DNA from: Sulfurimonas sp. endosymbiont of Alviniconcha boucheti | GTDB lineage: Bacteria > Campylobacterota > Campylobacteria > Campylobacterales > Sulfurimonadaceae | DNA: 37,994 nucleotides | Assembly (NCBI GenBank): GCA_021766785.1 | Contig: JAICBP010000081.1 | Location: 103,887 to 141,880 of the forward strand | Direction: 5' to 3' | In this document: positions 9,911 through 21,705 of the stretch, piece after piece | Numbering within the stretch: the first letter of the stretch is position 1 | Layout: each line of letters begins with the position of its first letter | Notes under the pieces: model-generated | Told to the model about the DNA's origin: nothing | Databases searched by the model: none | Seen by the model: only the letters and a program-made list of their open reading frames with translations | Position numbers and translations under genes: made by a program

Positions 9911-10411
9911 TTGCTAACCAAGATCAAACACTATAGTAAAGAGATTTTTTTTCTCTTTATCTTCATAATATTAACTACAAATATCATCAGTCTCTACAAA
10001 TCACAATCACTCAACAAAGAGAGACTCATACTCTCAACACATAAACTTATAGATACATCTCACTATGTAGTAGAAACAGACAAACCACTACTTGTTCATA
10101 TATGGGCAACTTGGTGTCCTATTTGTCAGGCAGAGGCAGATAATATAGAGAGGCTCTCTCACTACTATAATGTTATCACCATTGCTGTAAACTCTGGAAC
10201 TGATTATGAAATTCAGAACTATTTAAACAAGAGGGGCTTTACTTTTAAGGTTATTAATGACAAAAATAGTAGCCTCTCTAAAAAACTTAATATTACTAAT
10301 TTTCCAACTACTTTCATCTACGATAAAAAGAAAAAATTAGTTTTTAGTGAAGTAGGCTATACAAGTAGTTTTGGTCTTTGGCTACGAATGCTTTGGGCAG
10401 GCATACAATAA
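9911..10411 (+). CDS. Membrane-anchored TlpA/ScsD-like thiol-disulfide protein
   Basis: A single hydrophobic segment at about 12-28 anchors the protein, placing a thioredoxin domain in the periplasm. The active site is CPIC (69-72) in the context HIWATWCPICQAE, close to the ScsD/TlpA pattern. A cis-proline follows in NFPTTFIYD at about 135. The length, 166 residues, suits an anchored TlpA-type protein. Its stop is one base before the ATG of batA, so it belongs to the Bat operon. A role as periplasmic thiol reductant or oxidant for envelope proteins is inferred from the family; redox direction cannot be read from sequence. The start codon is TTG. Confidence 0.85.
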   Translation: MLTKIKHYSKEIFFLFIFIILTTNIISLYKSQSLNKERLILSTHKLIDTSHYVVETDKPLLVHIWATWCPICQAEADNIERLSHYYNVITIAVNSGTDYEIQNYLNKRGFTFKVINDKNSSLSKKLNITNFPTTFIYDKKKKLVFSEVGYTSSFGLWLRMLWAGIQ

Positions 10412-10412
10412 G

Positions 10413-11315
10413 ATGCAACACTTCGAGTTTGAGTATCTCTTCCCTTTCATTTTACTCCTACTCATTATCTGTATCTATAAATGTCCGTTAACTATAAAAA
10501 CTATAATATTTCCACATATTCACCTCTTTAATAAAAAAACAGAGTTTTTTAATAAGGATAAACTCCTTTATTCTGTTATCCTAGCACTTCTTATTACATC
10601 TCTTGCTTCGCCTATCTCTTATGACTCTAAGAGTTCACAAGAGAGAAAAGGACGTAATGTAGTTTTTACACTTGACACAAGTGGTTCTATGGATGAGAGT
10701 GGATACTCTACACAAAACAGACAACAATCAAAGTTTACTATTTTACTCTCACTTATAAAAACATTTGTCACAACAAGATTTGATGATAATGTTGGTGTTG
10801 TTGTCTTTGGCTCTTATGCTTTTAGTCCTGTACCAATCACCTATGATATGCACTCTTTAGAGTATATGCTTGATTTTTTAGAAGTTGGTATGGTTGGAGA
10901 TTCTACTGCTATTGGTGATGGGTTAGCTCGCTCTTTAGAGATGTTAGAACGATCAAAAGCAAAAAACAGAGTTATCATTCTCATCACCGACGGTTACCAA
11001 AATAGCGGTAGCACAAAGATCACAGATGCAGTTACACTTGCTAAAAAACTGCATGTCAAAATCTATACAATTGGCTTAGGTAAAACAAGTGATTATGATG
11101 TTAAACTTCTACAAAAGATAGCAAAAGAGACCAACGGCGTTGCCTTTTTGGCAGAAGATGCAGCAACACTTAAGGAGGTTTACGAGAAGCTAGATAGACT
11201 TGAACCAAGCCACATACGTTCACAAAACTATCTCAACAAATATATGCTCTACTATTATCCACTAACTCTTGCAATTTTACTACTTCTCTATCTTCTTGCA
11301 AAGAGGAGAAGCTAA
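10413..11315 (+). CDS. batA: BatA-like von Willebrand factor A membrane protein
   Basis: Bat (Bacteroides aerotolerance) proteins are VWA-domain inner-membrane proteins tied to stress tolerance. From the ATG at 10413 the protein has 300 residues: hydrophobic segments at about 9-22 and 51-67, then a VWA domain whose metal-ion (MIDAS) motif is DTSGS at 88-92, followed by the MIDAS threonine region around GDSTAIGDG and the conserved DGYQNSG. A last membrane segment sits at the C-terminus (YYYPLTLAILLLLYLLA). I chose 10413 over an in-frame TTG at 10371 because the latter would overlap the upstream gene by 41 bases. The stop abuts the next start with no gap. Confidence 0.85.
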   Translation: MQHFEFEYLFPFILLLLIICIYKCPLTIKTIIFPHIHLFNKKTEFFNKDKLLYSVILALLITSLASPISYDSKSSQERKGRNVVFTLDTSGSMDESGYSTQNRQQSKFTILLSLIKTFVTTRFDDNVGVVVFGSYAFSPVPITYDMHSLEYMLDFLEVGMVGDSTAIGDGLARSLEMLERSKAKNRVIILITDGYQNSGSTKITDAVTLAKKLHVKIYTIGLGKTSDYDVKLLQKIAKETNGVAFLAEDAATLKEVYEKLDRLEPSHIRSQNYLNKYMLYYYPLTLAILLLLYLLAKRRS

Positions 11316-12866
11316 ATGACACTCCTCAATATATGGATTCTTTTTGGAATTATTCCACTCTATTATCTCTACAAAAAACATACAACAGCTGCTAAACAAA
11401 TAAAACTTCTCTATCTGAGTCTCCTTTTTATGTTTTTAGCCATTGCAAGACCTGTTTATGAGAATGCTTATGTCAAAAAAAATTTTAACTCTCACGATTA
11501 CATCATAGCACTAGATGTCTCTTTTTCTATGCAAGCAAATGACATCAAACCAACAAGATATACTCTTGCAAAAGAGGCTATTAAGAGACTAATACGATCA
11601 GATCCAAAAGATAGATTTACCCTCTTTGCTTTTACCTCTTCTACCCTGCTCATCTCACCGCCAACTACTGATTATAAAATAAGTATCATGGCATTAGATG
11701 CACTTAATCCTAAATATATTTTAACAAAAGGTACAAATCTTAAAAATCTTTTCACTACAGTTGCAAAACTTCCTATGAAACAAAAAAAACTCATTATTTT
11801 TAGTGATGGTGGTGATGAGCACGATCTACAAACAGTTGCTCTTATTGCTAAAAAAAACAGTATAACTCCTTATATAGTTGCTACTGCTACTATAAAAGGT
11901 GCAGCCCTTAAAAAAGATGGCAAATATATTAAGAACACAAACGATTCTATTGTCATCTCAAAAATAAATCCTATGCTAAAAGACTTAGCAAGTATAAATA
12001 GAGGAAAGTACTATCATCTCAACACACTCGATGATATTACAACCCTTTCAAATGATTTACAAACAGAACAAACAAAAAAAGAGACCATAGAAGTCAAAAC
12101 ATACAAAGAACTCTTTTTTATCCCTCTACTTTTTAGTATCTTGTTCTTCTTTTTCGCTGTTACAAAGTTTGGACAAAAGTTCTTTCTCTTACTACCTCTA
12201 CTGCTACTCTCTCCCCTCCCTAGCAAAGCAGGATCCTTAGACTTTTATTATCTCATAGAGGCATCACATGCATATAGTACTAAACATTTTAAGAAGTCTG
12301 CTACTATATTTACAAAAATTGCACCCTCTCCAAAAAGTTATTATAATATTGCCACTGCTTATTATAAAGCTGGTGCTTATAAAAAGGCAATGAAATACTA
12401 TACACAGATTAGAACACAAGATAAAAATCTTAAATACAAAATCTACTATAACCTAGGCAATACAGCAGTAAAACTTAAAAGATACGACAAAGCTAAGAGA
12501 TACTATATCTATGCCCTTGCTCTACATGAAGATACAGATGCACTCTATAATCTTAATCTTCTAAAAAAACTACATCTAAAGACCAAAAAAGATAGAGATA
12601 AAATAGTGCCACAAAGTCAGACTAATAGCCAAAAGAAGAAGTTGCAAAGAGATGAAAATAAGAGAGAGAAAGCTCAAAACAATAAAAGCAAGAACTCCTC
12701 TAAAAACTCTTCTTCAAGTGGAGGCACTACATTAAATAACAAAAAGCCAAAAGAGAAGATACAAAAACAAAAAGCTGCAAAAAAACGAAAAACCAACTAT
12801 AGATTTACCTATAAAGCTTATGAAAAAATCAATAAAGGATATACAGATGAAAAAGAGCCTTGGTAG
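11316..12866 (+). CDS. batB: BatB-TPR (BatB/BatC fusion) protein
   Basis: Two hydrophobic segments at the N-terminus precede a VWA domain with MIDAS motif DVSFS (67-71) and a conserved FSDGGDEH. A hydrophobic pair follows at about 265-305. The rest is a TPR region (YYNIATAYYKAGAYKKAMKY, then a second repeat with YYNLGNTAVKLKRYDKAKRY) and a Lys/Asn/Ser-rich tail. In many bacteria the VWA part (BatB) and the TPR part (BatC) are separate genes; here both are in one 516-residue chain. A GAGGAG site lies before the ATG at 11316, which directly follows the batA stop. The TPR region should face the periplasm and bind a partner, but this is inferred. Confidence 0.85.
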   Translation: MTLLNIWILFGIIPLYYLYKKHTTAAKQIKLLYLSLLFMFLAIARPVYENAYVKKNFNSHDYIIALDVSFSMQANDIKPTRYTLAKEAIKRLIRSDPKDRFTLFAFTSSTLLISPPTTDYKISIMALDALNPKYILTKGTNLKNLFTTVAKLPMKQKKLIIFSDGGDEHDLQTVALIAKKNSITPYIVATATIKGAALKKDGKYIKNTNDSIVISKINPMLKDLASINRGKYYHLNTLDDITTLSNDLQTEQTKKETIEVKTYKELFFIPLLFSILFFFFAVTKFGQKFFLLLPLLLLSPLPSKAGSLDFYYLIEASHAYSTKHFKKSATIFTKIAPSPKSYYNIATAYYKAGAYKKAMKYYTQIRTQDKNLKYKIYYNLGNTAVKLKRYDKAKRYYIYALALHEDTDALYNLNLLKKLHLKTKKDRDKIVPQSQTNSQKKKLQRDENKREKAQNNKSKNSSKNSSSSGGTTLNNKKPKEKIQKQKAAKKRKTNYRFTYKAYEKINKGYTDEKEPW

Positions 12867-13995
12867 AATTATTATACTTTTTTTACTTCTTATCAATTAT
12901 ACCTATGCAACAGAGTTAGCCAAATACAAACTTTATGCGAACAAAACATCTGCTTATACAAAAGAAGCAGTCATCATTACCTTTAAAACAGAACAAAAAG
13001 ATTATACTGATAATATGATGTTCTCTTTAAAAGCAAAGCCAAATAGTGATTACAAAATTATTTTACTCAATAAAGAGGTAGATGATAAGAGAAAGCATCA
13101 TGCAAGTGCAACATTTAGCTATCTTCTTTTTGGACTTAGAGAAAAAGAGATATCTGTGCATTTTGACTTCATCATTCGTACTGCAAGTGATGAAGCAGTT
13201 ACCCATAGCTTTGTAGATGATCATGATGATAGTATTGCCACTCAAACACATGACACACATATCACAGTAAAGCCACTCAAGCTTCTTATAAAAAAGTTGG
13301 CTCATACTGTAGATCTAGTAGGAGACTTTACATTAGATACCAAGATAAGTGAAAAGAATATCAATCAATATGAATCTGTAAATATTGTATATACACTCCA
13401 AGGTAAGGGGTATGAAGAACAAACTTTTCAGCCCATAAGTAGTATTTATGGTGTAACTATTTTTTCTGAAGTAAATGATCTTTCTAAAAAAAACACTAAA
13501 AAAGGTTATGCTATCAAGAGAGAGTATATCTATGCTATGAGTGCAAAGAGTGATTTTATCATACCAGAACTAGAGTTAAAAGCTTACTCTCCAACACAAG
13601 AGAAATACTACACCCTAAAAAGTCCAAAACAGACTATACACGTAAACGCCATAAAGACAGCAAAACTTTTAGACAATGAAGAGTATCCAATTCAAGATAG
13701 AGCTATAGATATAGAATCTATCAAAAACTATTTTATCTATCTTATGATATTTCTATGTGGTTACATTACAGCAAAGATACAAATACCTCTTTTAAGAAAA
13801 AGAAGAGAGTCAAAAGAGTATAATCTTTTCAAACAAGCATCAACACCAAAAGCTCTTCTCTTTGCTATAATTACTCTACATAAAGAGCATATTTTCACCA
13901 AAGAAGTACAACTTTTAGAAGATATACTCTATAAAAATATAGAGCATAATTTTAAGAGCATAAAGAAAAAATTACTCAAAAAGGTAAAAAGATAA
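12847..13995 (+). CDS. batD: BatD-like oxygen-tolerance membrane protein
   Basis: The protein has 382 residues. It starts with a signal peptide (KKSLGRIIILFLLLINYTYA), continues with beta-rich Ig-like repeats typical of BatD, and has one transmembrane helix near residues 300-320 (NYFIYLMIFLCGYITA) followed by a basic cytoplasmic tail. I chose the ATG at 12847 since AAAGGA lies 7 bases before it; an ATG at 12820 adds nine residues before the signal peptide. The start overlaps the end of the BatB-TPR gene by 20 bases. Together the three Bat genes and the thioredoxin-like gene form one operon. The MoxR ATPase and DUF58 protein that usually accompany Bat genes are not here. Confidence 0.78.
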   Translation: MKKSLGRIIILFLLLINYTYATELAKYKLYANKTSAYTKEAVIITFKTEQKDYTDNMMFSLKAKPNSDYKIILLNKEVDDKRKHHASATFSYLLFGLREKEISVHFDFIIRTASDEAVTHSFVDDHDDSIATQTHDTHITVKPLKLLIKKLAHTVDLVGDFTLDTKISEKNINQYESVNIVYTLQGKGYEEQTFQPISSIYGVTIFSEVNDLSKKNTKKGYAIKREYIYAMSAKSDFIIPELELKAYSPTQEKYYTLKSPKQTIHVNAIKTAKLLDNEEYPIQDRAIDIESIKNYFIYLMIFLCGYITAKIQIPLLRKRRESKEYNLFKQASTPKALLFAIITLHKEHIFTKEVQLLEDILYKNIEHNFKSIKKKLLKKVKR

Positions 13996-14133: not shown

Positions 14134-14583
14134 CTAGTGCTCCATAAAAAACTCAGTATATACTTTTTCAAAGTAGCGTTTAGCATTCTCTACTTTATCA
14201 ATTTTCGCATCAAAAATCTCTTTTGTCGCAGGATACTTTTGTGAATACTCTTTATAAAGTTCACACTTTCTATCCATATTATTGCTAAACTGCTCAATAA
14301 CAGCTCTAAAATCATCAGGTGTTGCAACCCACTGCATAAATTTTTGAAACATTCTCTCACGAACATCTATAGCAAATGACTCATCTAATTGCCCTGCCAT
14401 TCTCTTGAGATCCCATCTTGAGAAATAAACGCCACTCTTTTGTGGAGGCATTACCTCAGCATAAATCGCTTTTAGATAGTCAGGATAATCCTCTTGTGTA
14501 TCCATATCATGACTACCCTCCATACAAGACTGTTGCATCTGTTCAAACTCACCTCTGAGTTCATTTAAATCTTTCATATCCAT
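14134..14583 (-). CDS. Unrecognised 149-residue protein, last gene of the molybdoenzyme operon
   Basis: I do not recognise this protein. It is acidic at the start, has two cysteines (C20 and C107), no signal peptide and no membrane segment, and appears mostly helical. Notable segments are YPDYLKAIYAEVMPPQKSG (33-51) and FSRWDLKRMAGQLDESFA (54-71). The ATG at 14583 has an AAGGA site 8 bases upstream and lies 12 bases after the stop of the AroE-N-like gene, so it is in the same operon. Its place at the end of a set of maturation genes suggests a cytoplasmic helper for the enzyme, but this is only context. Confidence 0.7.
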   Translation of the reverse strand: MDMKDLNELRGEFEQMQQSCMEGSHDMDTQEDYPDYLKAIYAEVMPPQKSGVYFSRWDLKRMAGQLDESFAIDVRERMFQKFMQWVATPDDFRAVIEQFSNNMDRKCELYKEYSQKYPATKEIFDAKIDKVENAKRYFEKVYTEFFMEH

Positions 14584-14595
14584 TATAATTTTCCT

Positions 14596-15021
14596 TTATT
14601 GTATAAACTGTTTATATATCTCTCGTGCTAAAACTTCATCCACTAAAACGCCTCTCTTTTCTAGGTATGTACCAATAAGTCGCTCACCCTTTCGTACAAC
14701 AAAGTCACACTTATTATAAACTTGTACAAACTCATCAGCTTCATCTAAGAGCTCAACTACACTCTCTTGATACTCTGCTGCTATATAAGCTCCATCTACA
14801 TGAGATTTTTTTATATTTGAGAGTGTAAAGTAAAAATCATCTTCTCTAATATTCATAGGAATCATCATCGCATCACTTCCTTCACTTTTAATAATCTTAT
14901 TAAGCATCACAAAAAGACGATTAGTAGTTGCATGTTCTGCTATAAGTCCATAAAGTTTTGTCTCATTTTTAATCTCATCATTAGCATTCATAGTATCAAT
15001 ATTTTGCATATTTTCGCTCAT
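14596..15021 (-). CDS. Stand-alone domain resembling the N-terminal half of shikimate dehydrogenase, without catalytic residues
   Basis: Residues 22-123 align by eye with the substrate-binding domain of AroE: KLYGLIAEH at the first strand, then a helix, VDGAYIAAEYQESVVELLDE where AroE has its VTVPFKE region, and VYNKCDFVVRKGERLIG where AroE has GAVNTLxxxxGxLxG. The catalytic lysine of AroE is replaced (Gln85), the NTDG aspartate is lost (TYLEKRG), and the HSxSP shikimate-binding serines are absent (TTNRLF). The NADP-binding Rossmann domain is missing too: the protein ends at 141 residues. It therefore cannot be a shikimate dehydrogenase. Its start overlaps the stop of the ferredoxin gene by one base. 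The likely role is a binding or maturation protein for the molybdoenzyme, by context only. Confidence 0.65.
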   Translation of the reverse strand: MSENMQNIDTMNANDEIKNETKLYGLIAEHATTNRLFVMLNKIIKSEGSDAMMIPMNIREDDFYFTLSNIKKSHVDGAYIAAEYQESVVELLDEADEFVQVYNKCDFVVRKGERLIGTYLEKRGVLVDEVLAREIYKQFIQ

Positions 15022-16121
15022 TATTTAATTCCCCACAACTCTCTAGCTTCATCCTCTTCAATCAAACATCTACGACATAAGATCTCACCGCTATGGTAAG
15101 AGAAAGGATTACCACACTCCTCACAACGTTTTATTGTAAAACGCACTAATGTCTCAATCTTTGGATCAAAAAAACTTGCAAGTGAAAAAGTTTCTCTTAG
15201 TCTCAAAGAGTCTGGCTCACACACATCATGGCAACTATGACACTGCACACATGAGAGTGGATTAAAGTTGATAACGGAACCCTTTGCATCAGAGAAGAGT
15301 GCTCCTGTTGGACAGATTCTATAACACATTTGACAGTTAGTACAACTCTCTTCATCTAAATTCTTTTGGGATATAAAACTAATATCTGCAATATCTATCG
15401 TGTGAAATATATCAAGAACCCCTACCCTTTTCATAGCCATCATCAACAAACTACGTCTATCTGGGATATTTTTCTGCTTTATTTTAGCAATATCTGCACC
15501 CGTTACTTTATGTATTTTGAGTGTTTTATCACTAGATGCTACCTTATTTTCAAACTCTTGCTTGATACTCACTACCTTTTTAAACCCATCTTTTGAGAGT
15601 AGTTTACGTCTTGAGAGTATGTCACTCTCTTGAGCTTCAAGTGCAACTTCTGCTGATGTCAAAGAGATAGATTTATCCTGTTGCAGAGCATCTAAAATAA
15701 AGTTAACCTCTTCAATTCGCTCTTGAATAATCTGGAAATTTTTTGTAGCAATAGGACACTCTTCACAAGAGCTAATATCAGCTTGAAGACTCTGTGGTGA
15801 GATAAGAGCGACACTTAAAAGCTCCTCAACACTCAATGCTGCGATACAAGGAAGTTTACTTTTACAGGTTATAAGTTCTAAATCATTCTCTAAAAAATGA
15901 AATAGATAATCTAACGACTTAAAATCATCTAACATATAAGCTTCTGTAGGACATACTGCATTACAACCACCACACCCTACACATTCACTTGGAGTAAAAG
16001 AGAGCAATCCCTCTTTTATATGAATGGTATCTACAGGACATGCTTCAACACACTTCTCACATATTGCAAATTTATTTGATGTATGCACACATTTTGATAC
16101 ATCTAAAGTTAATAGGCTCAT
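15021..16121 (-). CDS. Polyferredoxin with four [4Fe-4S]-type motifs and a C-terminal zinc ribbon
   Basis: The 366-residue protein has two ferredoxin-like cysteine sets at the N-terminus (C11, C21, C24, C28 and C47, C50, C53, C57), an extra group C86, C92, C119 and C122 that could hold another cluster, and two more ferredoxin sets near the C-terminus (C260, C263, C266, C270 and C291, C294, C297, C301). It ends with a zinc-ribbon-like CEEC...CRRC (C333, C336, C349, C352). The linker at 130-225 is helical and charged. There is no TAT or Sec signal, so it is cytoplasmic and not the periplasmic electron-transfer subunit. Its start overlaps the TorD gene by 4 bases. A role in delivering electrons or clusters during enzyme assembly is inferred. 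Confidence 0.8.
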   Translation of the reverse strand: MSLLTLDVSKCVHTSNKFAICEKCVEACPVDTIHIKEGLLSFTPSECVGCGGCNAVCPTEAYMLDDFKSLDYLFHFLENDLELITCKSKLPCIAALSVEELLSVALISPQSLQADISSCEECPIATKNFQIIQERIEEVNFILDALQQDKSISLTSAEVALEAQESDILSRRKLLSKDGFKKVVSIKQEFENKVASSDKTLKIHKVTGADIAKIKQKNIPDRRSLLMMAMKRVGVLDIFHTIDIADISFISQKNLDEESCTNCQMCYRICPTGALFSDAKGSVINFNPLSCVQCHSCHDVCEPDSLRLRETFSLASFFDPKIETLVRFTIKRCEECGNPFSYHSGEILCRRCLIEEDEARELWGIK

Positions 16122-16768
16122 CTTGTATATTTATACTCTTTATCTTTGAAATCATTTAAATACTGAAAATCACTCATAATAAACTCTAAAGTAAACTCAG
16201 CTAAATCAAAATAGAATGCTGTTCCTGACTCATTTTTCACATTTATAAGATACATTGGCATCCACTCTATAATATGATCCTTCATAAAACCGTATTGAAG
16301 TTGTGCTAGCTGTTTTGCTACCTCTAGATCTTCCTCTTCAAGAGCCTTAAGTTCTGCTTTACATAACTCATACATAAACTCTAACTCTATACCTATATGA
16401 TCAGCAGCCATTACACGAGCCTTATCAAGTTCTACCTTAAACTCAAAAGCGTTGAATATAGCCTGAACAGGATTATCACCACCAGTTTCCATCATTTGAT
16501 CCTCTCTTGTGTAAAAGGACTCATAAGGAATAAGGTGCAGTAAAAAAAGATTAGTAAAATCAACATTGAGATACTGCTCAATCAACTCTTTTTTCTCATA
16601 TTTATCTCTTTTGTTCCATGAAGCATATGTTGGAAAAAAGGAGAGTATATTTTCATCTTCTTCTATTGATTTTAGTAACCCTTCATCAACTTCAGACATT
16701 GTAAGTCTTGATAGGAGTGCATATATATTTATGCGAGCAATCTGCTCTTTTTTTAGTTCATCATTCAT
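16118..16768 (-). CDS. TorD/DmsD-family chaperone of the molybdoenzyme
   Basis: TorD-family proteins bind the TAT signal of a molybdoenzyme in the cytoplasm and hold it until the cofactor is inserted. The 216-residue, mostly helical protein carries the family motif DHIGIELEFMYEL at about 123-135 and a preceding segment PYESFYTREDQMM (81-93), also typical. The gene lies 80 bases after the catalytic subunit gene, whose TAT signal is its probable client. The gap holds a hairpin and a possible promoter (see separate entries). The AAAGG site lies before the ATG at 16768. Confidence 0.88.
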   Translation of the reverse strand: MNDELKKEQIARINIYALLSRLTMSEVDEGLLKSIEEDENILSFFPTYASWNKRDKYEKKELIEQYLNVDFTNLFLLHLIPYESFYTREDQMMETGGDNPVQAIFNAFEFKVELDKARVMAADHIGIELEFMYELCKAELKALEEEDLEVAKQLAQLQYGFMKDHIIEWMPMYLINVKNESGTAFYFDLAEFTLEFIMSDFQYLNDFKDKEYKYTR

Positions 16769-16848: not shown

Positions 16849-19800
16849 TCAAACGTCTTTTATCTCAACTTTGTAAGCTTTTTGACTTGGTTTTACTGGT
16901 CGCTTGATATGGTACGGACGTCGCCATTGATCACCAGTTGCAAGTGGACGTGTAAGTCCTTGCCAAGCTTTATAAACCTTAAAGTTATTTTCATAATTTA
17001 CATGAATATCACCGATTTTTTCATCAGCAGTAGCTTTTGTAATGATAACTTTTTGATGCCAGCCATGATTACCTGCAATTGGATCTGGATGTACAGGAGC
17101 TACAGCATTTTGCCATGCACCTGAGAGCCCATCCCACCAAATATCATCTAAATCTCTATTGTACTCTTTAAACTGCCATACTTTATGTGGGTGTATTCCC
17201 TCAGTAGTTGTCATTGTTCCAACTTTTCCATCATTAGTCATAGTTACTTTTGGAGAACCTAGACTCATAATATCTAAAGAGTGCTCAAATCCAGGAATAT
17301 CAACAGCATTTTGAAGTTTCCAACGACCAGCATGGTGTGAACATGCAAGAACACCTGGACGTGTCGCTTCTGTTGGTACAGCCATTGCAATAAAGTAACC
17401 ACTTTGAATACCCGAGAGAGTATCTTCTATTTGAACCTTCACTGCATCCCCACGTTTAATACCAAGTTTTTCAGCATCTTTTGTGTAAATCCAAATTGGA
17501 TTATGATTTTGTGAAATCTCCATTAGATGTTTAGAGTTCACCGAACGTGTATGAATATTATATGGTAAACGATAAATAGTATTCAGTGCAAACTCATTAT
17601 CTGCTTTCATATGTTTATGGTGTACTTGTGTTACAAGTTCTACCATTTTATCATTTTCAGCATCATCTCTTGGATAAATTGGTATTGCATATTCTGGCCA
17701 CTTCCACTCAGCTAGCCACTCAGAGAAAAATTCAAGCTTTTTACTTAATGAATGAAACCCCTCTTTAAGCTCACCATCAATTTCAATACCAATAGATTTC
17801 TCCAATTCACCATCTTTTATCCATAATGCACCAAACTCATCTTTGCGAACTTCATTTTTATGGTGTTTATGACCATGTACAATATAGTGTGTACCATCAA
17901 ACTCAAGCTCCTCTTCTTGAGGTTTATATACATTAGTTTTTTCAGTCCAAGCACCATGATCTCTTATATAAGAATATACTGGATACTCTTCACCTTTATA
18001 CATTTTTGTAGCTCTCTCTTTTAGCCTTGGAAGAAGACTTAATGCAGCATCAAAATACTCAGGAACACTAACACAACGAGATGGATCTTTTTTACTTGCC
18101 CAATAATCTCTGATACCGAGCTTACCATCTTTATCTACATGATGAAAAATAAGGTTTGGCCAAAATTCAGACTCTTCCCAAACTTCACCAAGACCATATT
18201 TCATATGTGCTTCTAATGTTGCACGAGTTGGATCTTTTGGCTTCCAACCAGATTTTTCAGCTGCAACACGAAGAACTGCTTGACGAAATTCAATACGTTG
18301 CTCAGGCTTAGATGGAGTAGATTGTTGATCATTTCTCTCACCAGCAAGTCCAACAGGAAGTACATAATCACAATACCAGTTTGTCTCAGACCAAGTTGGA
18401 GATAAGTTAAATGTTAATTCAAATTTATCCTCACGCTTAAGTGCTTCTATCCATCTAAAACCATCTGGATTAATCCAAAGTGGATTATGCATTCTTGGAA
18501 CATAAACAGCCATAGATTTAGGAATTTTAAGACCACGTTTTGTCCATTTATCATACCACTCATCATCCATCATAATCTGTGGCATCATAAAGCCCATCTC
18601 ATATGTAGAAATTGGATACTCTGGTGGCCATGCTATCTCATTCCATACATCAGTTTTTTCTGGGTGTTTACCAGCTACAGTAGCTTTATCACCTTTTCCA
18701 GCGACAGAGATCTCATGCCAGTGGTGCATACCGACCCCACCAATATCACCGCGCATAGCACCAACAAGAACAAGAGGCAAGAAACCTGTACGAGTATTCA
18801 TCCAACCACCACGGTGACCAATTGCTCCTGCACGCCATATATATGAAACTATTTTTGCACCAGCTGGAACAAATAGTTCCCAAAGTTGATCTAATTTATA
18901 CTCCATACCTTCAAGTTTACACTCTTTAACTACAAACTCTTTGGTATATGGAGCATAGAGTTCTTTAAGTACCTCTACAAATGACTCATAAGAATTATCT
19001 TTTGGCATTTTAGAGATATAACCATAACCTACCATCTTTTGAAGATACTCTTTATTCGCCATAAGACGATCCCAATTTACCCAGTTTTTCACAAATTCAT
19101 GCTTAATAATATCTTCACCATCTTTATTTTTCTCATGAACAATTCTATTTACAAGATAAAGGTAGAGTGCAGCTTCAGTTCCTGGCCAAGCTGGTATCCA
19201 AAGATCTGCCATACCAGCAGAGTTTGACATACGAGGGTCAATAACAACCATCTTCGCACCACGTTTACGGGCATCTGCTATAAGACCTGCTGATTGTTGA
19301 AAATAGTGACCTGCATCAGCTGCATGAGATGACTGCAAGAAGATTAGATCTGCATTAGCCCAATCTGGTGAATTTCTATCATCATTTGCCCATTGAATTG
19401 TACCCTCACGAGCACCTGCAGAACAGATGTTTGTATGAGAGTTATACCCATCAATACCTAATGATTGTGGTACACGAGGTCCAAAACCATTTTCATTTGG
19501 ACGACCAATATGATACATGATCTGTTTTTTAGAGACTTCATCACCTTTAGCCAGTGTATCATGCATTTTCTTACCGATAACTTTCATAGCCTCATCCCAA
19601 GTTACACGAACCCATTTACCTTCACCACGTTTAGAACCTGGAGCACGTTTGATTGGGAACGGAATACGATCTGGATCATACATCTGAGATGTTACTGCAT
19701 AACCTTTTGCACAGTTGCGCCCACGAGAACCTGTATGAAGTGGGTTACCCATGTATTTACGTACAGTAAGTACTCCTTTATCAAACTCATTTTTATTTAC

Positions 19801-20133
19801 CCATGCAGTAAGACCACATCCTGCTTCACAGTTTGAACATACTGTAGGAACAATTGTATAATCATTTACTTGAATACCATCCGTGTTAGAATTACTACGA
19901 ACGCCATGGCGTTCAATACCACCACGCTTCCAATCTGTTGCATCTAACTCTTTAAAGCTATCCCACTCTTTTACATCAGGGTAAAAAGAGATAGTCTCTG
20001 GTGTATTGGTAAATTTTGAGCTTGTTTCAGATTCTGCTACTGCATCAGTTGAAAACACACCCTTTACAACAGCAACGCCAGCAACACTAAATGCGGCACC
20101 TTTTAAAAATGTTCTTCTACTTTCTAAATACAT
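16849..20133 (-). CDS. Periplasmic molybdopterin oxidoreductase, catalytic subunit (Psr/Phs/Ttr-like)
   Basis: The N-terminus has a twin-arginine signal (SRRTFLKG at 5-12, then a hydrophobic stretch ending near AVA), so the folded enzyme is exported. A [4Fe-4S] motif follows: C99, C102, C106 and C141. The probable molybdenum ligand is C237 in NICSAGAREG, a cysteine as in polysulfide, thiosulfate and tetrathionate reductases, not the serine of DMSO reductase or aspartate of NarG. At 1094 residues it is much longer than PsrA or PhsA (about 760) and nearer TtrA-like enzymes. The C-terminal dinucleotide-binding region is present (SVNSKHLMEISQNHNPIW onward). A sulfur compound is the likely substrate from lineage and family, but the sequence cannot settle substrate or direction. 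AAGGAG precedes the ATG. Confidence 0.9.
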   Translation of the reverse strand: MYLESRRTFLKGAAFSVAGVAVVKGVFSTDAVAESETSSKFTNTPETISFYPDVKEWDSFKELDATDWKRGGIERHGVRSNSNTDGIQVNDYTIVPTVCSNCEAGCGLTAWVNKNEFDKGVLTVRKYMGNPLHTGSRGRNCAKGYAVTSQMYDPDRIPFPIKRAPGSKRGEGKWVRVTWDEAMKVIGKKMHDTLAKGDEVSKKQIMYHIGRPNENGFGPRVPQSLGIDGYNSHTNICSAGAREGTIQWANDDRNSPDWANADLIFLQSSHAADAGHYFQQSAGLIADARKRGAKMVVIDPRMSNSAGMADLWIPAWPGTEAALYLYLVNRIVHEKNKDGEDIIKHEFVKNWVNWDRLMANKEYLQKMVGYGYISKMPKDNSYESFVEVLKELYAPYTKEFVVKECKLEGMEYKLDQLWELFVPAGAKIVSYIWRAGAIGHRGGWMNTRTGFLPLVLVGAMRGDIGGVGMHHWHEISVAGKGDKATVAGKHPEKTDVWNEIAWPPEYPISTYEMGFMMPQIMMDDEWYDKWTKRGLKIPKSMAVYVPRMHNPLWINPDGFRWIEALKREDKFELTFNLSPTWSETNWYCDYVLPVGLAGERNDQQSTPSKPEQRIEFRQAVLRVAAEKSGWKPKDPTRATLEAHMKYGLGEVWEESEFWPNLIFHHVDKDGKLGIRDYWASKKDPSRCVSVPEYFDAALSLLPRLKERATKMYKGEEYPVYSYIRDHGAWTEKTNVYKPQEEELEFDGTHYIVHGHKHHKNEVRKDEFGALWIKDGELEKSIGIEIDGELKEGFHSLSKKLEFFSEWLAEWKWPEYAIPIYPRDDAENDKMVELVTQVHHKHMKADNEFALNTIYRLPYNIHTRSVNSKHLMEISQNHNPIWIYTKDAEKLGIKRGDAVKVQIEDTLSGIQSGYFIAMAVPTEATRPGVLACSHHAGRWKLQNAVDIPGFEHSLDIMSLGSPKVTMTNDGKVGTMTTTEGIHPHKVWQFKEYNRDLDDIWWDGLSGAWQNAVAPVHPDPIAGNHGWHQKVIITKATADEKIGDIHVNYENNFKVYKAWQGLTRPLATGDQWRRPYHIKRPVKPSQKAYKVEIKDV

Positions 20134-20146
20134 TTATACTTTCTCC

Positions 20147-21070
20147 TTAACTTAACGATAGTAGTTGCGGGATTACTAGCCAAACATGTTTGACTATCCA
20201 TAAACCTGCGATTGCTAAAATAGCGGCAAGTGTTAAAATACTATTACTTCTGCTTACTCTATAAAGAGCAATAAGTATCATTGGTAAGATATATGCTACC
20301 CACTCTCCTATCCAAAACATAGTTGCATATGCACCATCACCTTTTATATATGCTAAAATTGCTGCTGTCTCTTCTGATTTCATTGCACCAAAGATATACT
20401 CAGACATATAGATGATAAATGCTAATAATGCACTTAAACCTAAGATAGAAGCAAAGAAGTTCTTTGTCTCATCACTTAGTTTAGAGCCACCAAGAAGAAG
20501 AATAGCTGCTGAACCACTAAGAGTTGCTGCTAAAATCATCTGTACTGACTCTGTTGGCATTTGCCACAACTCACGTGCAGTTGCTTCTGCCATAATACCT
20601 GCAGTATAAAGAGTAACAGGAATTGCTAAAAGAGTTACCCAAAAAAGGAGTTTATCAAAAGATGCATTAGCATTGCTTGTAAGTAAACACTTCTCTTTTC
20701 TAATCATCATAACCATCATTATAGACTCAAGAGCAACGAAAACTGTCGCCATCCATGCGCCAACAGTAATTGCTGAAGTCCAATGAGGATAGAAAAAGAT
20801 ATGCCACATTCTAAATGGTTGGTGCAAATCAGCAAGAGTAAAAAGTAAAAAAACATTCATCATTATAAATGAAACAGTAATTGCTGAAGTCCTTACTCCA
20901 GACATCTCATCAGAGTTCTTTCTTAGTAATAAAAAAAGCATAAATACAAGACCTGTACCAATACTCTTCGCCCACATATTCATAGTAACAAACCAGCCCC
21001 AAAATATATCTGGCAATGCTACATCCAAAGTTACCACAGCATGAGTAGCTGCTAAAGTTTCTTGTACCAT
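20147..21070 (-). CDS. NrfD/PsrC-type quinone-interacting membrane subunit
   Basis: The 307-residue protein has about eight predicted membrane helices, the usual NrfD/PsrC design. Examples are GTGLVFMLFLLL near 40 and the C-terminal LTLAAILAIAGLWIVKHVW. NrfD proteins lack haem and pass electrons between the quinone pool and the iron-sulfur subunit. Conserved features include the early WGWFVTMNMWAKS and a HQPFRMWHIFF segment near 85-95. The ATG overlaps the stop of the iron-sulfur gene by one base, and the catalytic gene begins 13 bases after its stop, so the three subunits are translated as one unit. Confidence 0.87.
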   Translation of the reverse strand: MVQETLAATHAVVTLDVALPDIFWGWFVTMNMWAKSIGTGLVFMLFLLLRKNSDEMSGVRTSAITVSFIMMNVFLLFTLADLHQPFRMWHIFFYPHWTSAITVGAWMATVFVALESIMMVMMIRKEKCLLTSNANASFDKLLFWVTLLAIPVTLYTAGIMAEATARELWQMPTESVQMILAATLSGSAAILLLGGSKLSDETKNFFASILGLSALLAFIIYMSEYIFGAMKSEETAAILAYIKGDGAYATMFWIGEWVAYILPMILIALYRVSRSNSILTLAAILAIAGLWIVKHVWLVIPQLLSLS

Positions 21071-21705
21071 TAGTGATGCCCTCCTAGTGGAAGATGTGTT
21101 AGTTTATTAAATAGGTCATAACCCTCTTCTCTTTTTGAAGCTAAGGGGTTAAGATGAACTTGTGATGCACCTACATAAAAGTGGTGAGGATTAGTCCCTT
21201 TCTCTGGCTTACGCACTTGAACATCAGTATGCCTCTGAATATATTTTGAGATATTAGAAGTAGGATCTTCTAAATCACCAAAAATATTTGCACCAACTGG
21301 ACAAGCAACAACACACGCCGGCATCATAGATGAGGCTATGCGATGCGCACAGTAAGTACACTTATCAGCGGTTTGTGTTTCAGGATCAATATAGATTGCT
21401 CCATAAGGACAAGCCATAACACAACCTGCACATCCAATACAACGCTCTTTATCAATATTTACAATACCATTTTCAATATAATGAAGTGCAGATACTGGAC
21501 AAATTCTCTCGCAAGGAGCATTCTCACAGTGATTACATCTCAAAGGTGTAAACGTTCTCTTTGTTTCTGGGAATGTTCCCACATCTACATACTTAACACG
21601 TAGTCTCCATGTACTAAGCGGTACTTCATTCTCCACCTTACATGCGATCTCACATCCTTTACAACCCATACATAGGTGTAAATCAACTAGGAAACCTAAT
21701 TGCAT
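21070..21705 (-). CDS. Four-cluster [4Fe-4S] electron-transfer subunit (PsrB/DmsB-like)
   Basis: This subunit connects the membrane subunit to the catalytic subunit. Four cysteine sets are complete: C12, C15, C18, C22; C57, C60, C65, C69; C89, C92, C95, C99; and C116, C119, C131, C135. No signal peptide is present; such subunits are normally exported in complex with the TAT-bearing catalytic subunit. The 211 residues fit the family. It is the first gene of the operon, with AAAGGAGA before the ATG at 21705 and a promoter region upstream (TATAAA on the minus strand at 21744-21739). The gene order B-C-A is unusual, since A-B-C is more common. Confidence 0.93.
   Translation of the reverse strand: MQLGFLVDLHLCMGCKGCEIACKVENEVPLSTWRLRVKYVDVGTFPETKRTFTPLRCNHCENAPCERICPVSALHYIENGIVNIDKERCIGCAGCVMACPYGAIYIDPETQTADKCTYCAHRIASSMMPACVVACPVGANIFGDLEDPTSNISKYIQRHTDVQVRKPEKGTNPHHFYVGASQVHLNPLASKREEGYDLFNKLTHLPLGGHH

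Follow-up and report, generated by a model that had tools for sequence, protein, structure and literature searches.

Gene A of the window, the whole stretch of 37,994 nucleotides from a Sulfurimonas sp. endosymbiont of Alviniconcha boucheti that was analyzed here, encodes a 141-residue protein which is homologous to the substrate-binding domain of shikimate dehydrogenase (AroE). The loss of its catalytic residues and of the NADP domain, the strong selection acting on it, and its place next to the genes for the chaperone and the ferredoxin of an exported molybdoenzyme suggest that a dead enzyme has been reused as an enzyme-assembly factor in sulfur-cycling bacteria. A is regarded as a putative non-catalytic scaffold or binding protein for the maturation of a PsrA-like molybdoenzyme, a reading to which a probability of about 55% is assigned; we infer here that A acts in maturation, that it does so by binding, and what it binds. 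AroE-derived pseudoenzymes are already known in the form of fungal repressors, and what appears to be new is the link to a molybdoenzyme gene set.

The operon of gene A

The genes of the operon are arranged in the order FeS subunit (B), NrfD (N), MopB (M), TorD (T), polyferredoxin (F), A and D:

21070 to 21705, minus strand: 4Fe-4S electron-transfer subunit (B), TtrB/ArrB-like
20147 to 21070, minus strand: NrfD-type membrane subunit (N), PF03916 at E 3e-18
16849 to 20133, minus strand: MopB (M), Tat-exported molybdopterin oxidoreductase catalytic subunit of 1094 amino acids, PsrA/PhsA-like, signal SRRTFLK
16118 to 16768, minus strand: TorD/NarJ-family chaperone (T), PF02613 at E 6e-16 and NF003442 at E 3e-16
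15021 to 16121, minus strand: polyferredoxin (F), two Fer4 pairs plus linker, C-terminal CxxC..CxxC
15597 to 15611, minus strand: Tat-like twin-arginine motif SRRKLL in the polyferredoxin linker, about residues 171-175
14596 to 15021, minus strand: A, pseudo-AroE protein of 141 amino acids, AroE substrate-binding-domain fold plus C-terminal helix, without NADP domain and without the catalytic Lys and Asp
14134 to 14583, minus strand: D, 149 amino acids, all-helical, adjoining A wherever the module is intact

The reading frame of A was found where the first-pass annotation had placed it, and its proposed coupling with the TorD and polyferredoxin genes is borne out by the stop/start overlaps. 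The start ATG of A shares one base (15021) with the stop codon of the polyferredoxin gene (TAATG), and the TorD stop and the polyferredoxin start overlap by four bases (ATGA, 16118-16121). A scan of the operon for promoters and terminators returned no more sites than shuffled sequence did.

Like PsrABC, PhsABC, TtrABC, and ArrAB, the operon encodes a catalytic subunit of the MopB type together with FeS and NrfD subunits, but its MopB of 1094 residues does not reach the cut-off of any named NCBIfam family and lies far below every one. The closest solved catalytic subunit is 2vpw, and the Tat signal motif is also seen in the MopB proteins of relatives. To our knowledge, accessory genes for a polyferredoxin, A and D are not parts of the systems named above. 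One paper on Sulfurovum psr makes no mention of TorD or chaperone genes.

TorD chaperones bind Tat signals and aid cofactor insertion (PMC10609526). The polyferredoxin may by analogy have a role like that of NapF, an Fe-S protein of the cytoplasm which binds NapA and is needed for its Fe-S assembly (PMC10609526, PMC3712460); at E 1e-6, NapH was among the matches listed for its C-terminal half and NapF was not among them. The twin-arginine motif in its linker is present in 100 of 100 complete polyferredoxins, two of which, both members of family f17, carry it as KR. It has the form S/D/N-RR-x-F/L-L/F, the same in loci L033-L142, and is not followed by a hydrophobic stretch. The motif may mimic a signal peptide for TorD. 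A second motif, IPDRRxLLF, was seen 50 residues further on.

For the D protein, neither the fold search against the PDB (best Foldseek E 0.6, best VIA Z 6.8, for a helical model) nor the comparison with Pfam and NCBIfam (RhoGEF at E 6e-4, below the cut-off) gave a reliable or convincing match. Its invariant residues are P47, G51, S55, D58, R75, M78, and Y110.

Descent from AroE, domain loss and pocket residues

The relationship of A to AroE was followed at the level of profiles and of the fold. The PF08501 (AroE N-domain) model matched A with E 7.5e-5, and its score of 23.3 bits is below the curated cut-off of 27, so that automatic annotation may miss the protein; the profile match which the first-pass annotation had named as a check is present, but sub-threshold for the single sequence. 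NCBIfam AroE models matched residues 17-125 of A (E 3.2e-8 and 3.6e-6), and a profile of the A family found AroE crystal structures in the PDB at E 2.8e-13 (hmmsearch). Profile-profile comparison of the A family with 15 Campylobacterota AroEs (hhalign) gave a probability of 98.3% and E 1.4e-14 with both domains covered, while the neighboring 149-residue D protein, used as negative control, reached 0.2%. The true AroEs in the genomes of relatives appear as weak second matches of the A-family profile, mostly at E 1e-4 to 1e-12. Identity between A and AroE is about 15-20%. A chance resemblance was ruled out by the profile, fold, and negative-control comparisons. The further possibility that A replaces AroE was also ruled out, as an intact AroE of 264 amino acids is encoded elsewhere in the genome.

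The AlphaFold model of A (pLDDT 87.5, pTM 0.82) matched AroE structures with a Foldseek E of 5e-8 and a VIA Z of 18.1 on 2hk9_B (rmsd 1.9 Å, 126 residues aligned), which upholds the AroE N-domain fold assigned from the letters alone, and the best 50 structure matches listed were all of shikimate dehydrogenase type. The 126 aligned residues stretch over AroE residues 1 to 252, so the substrate domain and the C-terminal helix are matched and the NADP domain is skipped. In the model, the C-terminal helix which packs back on the N-domain appears to be retained, with which MAFFT sequence alignments agree; the input alignment for AlphaFold included two-domain relatives, which may aid the placement of this helix. 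The parts of A are as follows:

14668 to 14958, minus strand: alpha/beta core of the substrate domain, residues 22-118 (DSSP of the model)
14602 to 14637, minus strand: C-terminal helix, residues 129-140, counterpart of the AroE C-terminal helix after the NADP domain (VIA and MAFFT)
14773 to 14775, 14767 to 14769 and 14704 to 14706, minus strand: remodeled pocket positions E83, Q85, and D106, respectively (residue mapping)

A had been described as a stand-alone N-domain. The absence of the NADP domain stood up to analysis, but A is not a plain N-terminal fragment, as the C-terminal helix is kept and the domain between has been excised. By eye, a helix-like stretch after the excised domain also closes the sequences of other short forms (family f6).

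In most Sulfurimonas relatives the A gene encodes 250-290 amino acids including a second domain that corresponds by homology to the Rossmann domain of AroE, the NADP-binding domain missing from the protein of the window. The lengths within the family, counted from the start of the match, are bimodal, with 113-167 residues for one group and about 190-290 for the other. Most two-domain members have a disrupted glycine motif in the Rossmann domain; f4, L186, and L187 largely keep the motif, e.g., as GAGATARA (f4, L049) or FGAGKMAKAL (L186). A appears to have arisen by excision of the NADP domain from a pseudo-AroE with two domains, the form which most relatives still have. On a polyferredoxin tree with 66 rows, the short and two-domain states require at least five changes, four of which follow necessarily from branches with good support. 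Since both domains were present in the AroE ancestor, the simplest reading would be that the NADP domain was lost repeatedly, at least four to five times; short forms may also have moved between lineages by transfer. The alternative that A and D are halves of one split gene was ruled out, because the long relatives have an AroE-like Rossmann domain and a separate D beside them.

The residues of the active site were compared in an alignment of 58 members of the A family (Lys65, Asp102, and further AroE positions in E. coli numbering). The reported loss of the catalytic lysine and of the aspartate of the NTDG motif extends to nearly the whole family: Lys65 is Q85 in A and a lysine in one of the 58, and Asp102 is E121 and an aspartate in two. 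The shikimate-binding serines are likewise gone, Ser14 and Ser16 being N34 and L36 in A and Asn/Ser and Leu/Phe, respectively, across the family; at the position of Gln244 a glutamine is not conserved. Judged from these residue counts and from the loss of the NADP domain at least four to five times, catalysis appears excluded as the common function of the family.

Other positions are strongly conserved. N41, the asparagine of the MHN motif, is invariant and common to AroE, which also shares a KLIG-type strand with A, whereas N57, I58, D62, N69, S73, E83, and D106 are family-specific (93-98%). E83, kept in 55 of the 58 members, sits at the pocket proline of AroE two residues before the catalytic lysine, and D106, an aspartate in 54, sits at the position of Asn86. 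The pocket of A thus seems to have been rebuilt and not lost. Furthermore, the median dN/dS of A is 0.086 (computed among close relatives of the short form for the 114 pairs whose dS is below 2): A is under strong purifying selection and is a working gene.

AroE (PDB 2hk9, 1nvt) and its paralogs YdiB and HI0607 resemble A in the fold of the substrate domain and the place of the C-terminal helix, but A lacks the catalytic Lys and Asp, the shikimate serines and the NADP domain, and is encoded in a molybdoenzyme operon.

Distribution and association with MopB

The association with a molybdoenzyme, proposed from the window alone, holds up in conserved gene order and in co-occurrence even when the genes are unlinked. 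The order B-N-M-T-F-A-D recurs with some gaps in families f1, f4, f6, f17, and f18. Many Sulfurimonas genomes carry B-N-M at one locus and T-F-A-D at another, and genome G096 has A, D-T-F and B-N-M in three different places (L051, L151, L152). The A homolog of this genome (L051, 7227-7880; 217 amino acids) is a two-domain remnant directly after dnaJ and away from TorD, polyferredoxin, and MopB.

Among 99 relatives from the Campylobacterales, MopB is present in 57 of the 58 A-carriers and in 7 of the 41 non-carriers, and outside the genus in 10/10 carriers and 4/29 non-carriers; as relatives are not independent, the Fisher p-values overstate this association, which counted by family stands at 6/0/3/13 (p 0.001). 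The sole A-carrier without MopB (G052) is a draft of 84% completeness. One genome (G079) contains B-N-M-T-F-D without A, and another (G037, 96% complete) contains MopB without the TorD-polyferredoxin-A-D module; in G065 and G077 the loci are truncated at the ends of contigs. Since at least two lineages retain other parts in the absence of A, an enzyme of this kind does not strictly require it; G037 and G079 offer natural tests of how far A is required.

In a sample of 397 genomes from the phylum, 81 carry the A family at E 1e-15, of which at least one (G233) is a true AroE. The match in family f14 (L181) is likewise a true AroE and was excluded.

A different molybdoenzyme (L173, L174, L175, L176, L177) is accompanied by a paralogous TorD-polyferredoxin pair, with neither A nor D beside it. 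This enzyme has about 960 amino acids, a Tat signal and a ferredoxin-type subunit of 370 amino acids and was seen in several genomes. TorD and polyferredoxin are constant neighbors in the present module and also occur without A and D at the other enzyme, and the simplest account is that they are general parts of molybdoenzyme biogenesis in Campylobacterales to which A and D were added for the PsrA-like enzyme.

Proposed role of A and competing explanations

In the favored model, A would be a cytoplasmic pseudoenzyme descended from shikimate dehydrogenase, which is devoted, as one module with TorD, polyferredoxin, and D, to the maturation of the Tat-exported PsrA-like molybdoenzyme encoded in its operon. 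The former substrate domain, its pocket without the Lys/Asp/Ser set and with E83 and D106 conserved instead, would serve as binding or scaffold module. Most likely, A would hold the apo-catalytic subunit or a partner from the module during insertion of the Fe-S cluster and bis-MGD, while export is held back. In favor of this model are the conserved gene order, the co-occurrence with MopB also at unlinked loci, the low dN/dS, and the fact that both recognizable partners, TorD and the polyferredoxin, are of maturation type. TorD/DmsD/NarJ, NapD, NapF, FdhD/FdhE, and XdhC are likewise small cytoplasmic accessory proteins encoded with Tat-exported or complex molybdoenzymes, and we know of no AroE fold among them nor of any molybdoenzyme gene set which includes a protein derived from AroE. 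Searches of open-licence papers for shikimate dehydrogenase with molybdopterin, chaperone or operon returned nothing relevant, and no report of an AroE-derived protein in the biogenesis or gene set of a molybdoenzyme was found there.

If this model is correct, respiratory molybdoenzymes have gained an assembly factor from an enzyme of central metabolism. The several independent excisions of the NADP domain, with the rest kept under strong selection, would then amount to a natural dissection of the function-carrying half. For a respiratory enzyme common in Sulfurimonas and its relatives, a four-gene set including the unannotated A and D would now be named, by which the maturation of the PsrA-like enzyme becomes directly testable.

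Gene order would also fit an electron-transfer or a regulatory role of A. It is unlikely, but the several Fe-S motifs of the polyferredoxin and the co-occurrence of the gene set with a respiratory enzyme would agree with it, that polyferredoxin, A, and D form a cytoplasmic electron-transfer complex feeding or draining NrfD/FeS/MopB; A, having no cofactor motif, would be a structural subunit. Against this, the Tat signal of MopB places the expected active site in the periplasm, with FeS and NrfD subunits of its own, and both the position of TorD between MopB and polyferredoxin and the TorD-polyferredoxin pair at an unrelated molybdoenzyme point to biogenesis.

Slightly less likely still is a ligand sensor or co-regulator in the manner of QutR and GaaX, which reuse AROM domains to bind inducer and activator. 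The fungal proteins QutR, Qa-1S, and GaaX are similar to the final three domains of AROM, and in GaaX the shikimate dehydrogenase domain has the highest density of missense mutations (PMC6528562). Like A, they apparently represent a non-catalytic reuse of this domain (PMC6528562), but they are multidomain regulators of quinate and galacturonate genes without a molybdoenzyme link, and excision of the Rossmann domain is not reported for them. A pocket which was remodeled rather than randomized would suit a sensor, whereas the conserved gene set holds no DNA-binding partner and its constant neighbors are a TorD chaperone and a polyferredoxin.

It is rather improbable that A is an enzyme with a different, unrecognized activity or substrate. 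The Rossmann glycine motif kept in some two-domain members makes an NAD(P)-dependent activity possible there, but it is broken in most of them, nearly all members of the family have lost the AroE Lys and Asp, and the absence of the whole domain from the clade of the window and from other lineages means that such an activity is not the shared function.

A more specific variant, which we rate as comparably speculative, is that A binds a twin-arginine motif, either the Tat signal of MopB or the internal RRxFL of the polyferredoxin, and acts as an export gate coupling Fe-S loading to Tat release. The shift of the pocket from carboxylate-binding (Ser/Ser/Lys) to acidic (E83, D106) would, at similarly long odds, belong to such a gate. 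In family f17, in which the polyferredoxin has KR instead of RR, one member (L050) also lacks E83 and D106, while the MopB signal of f17 keeps RR; the joint change lends weak support to twin-arginine binding. If it held true, A would be a new class of molybdoenzyme proofreading protein.

That A is a decaying relic without function is hardly credible: catalytic residues and one domain are lost, but decay is ruled out by the dN/dS and by several positions conserved to 93-100% across families, and the protein-query matches show no internal stops.

Finally, a thioredoxin-like ORF and three vWA/BatD-like ORFs on the other strand run toward the end of the operon (9911-13995, plus strand), and a similar set adjoins the operon in related genomes (L033, L188).
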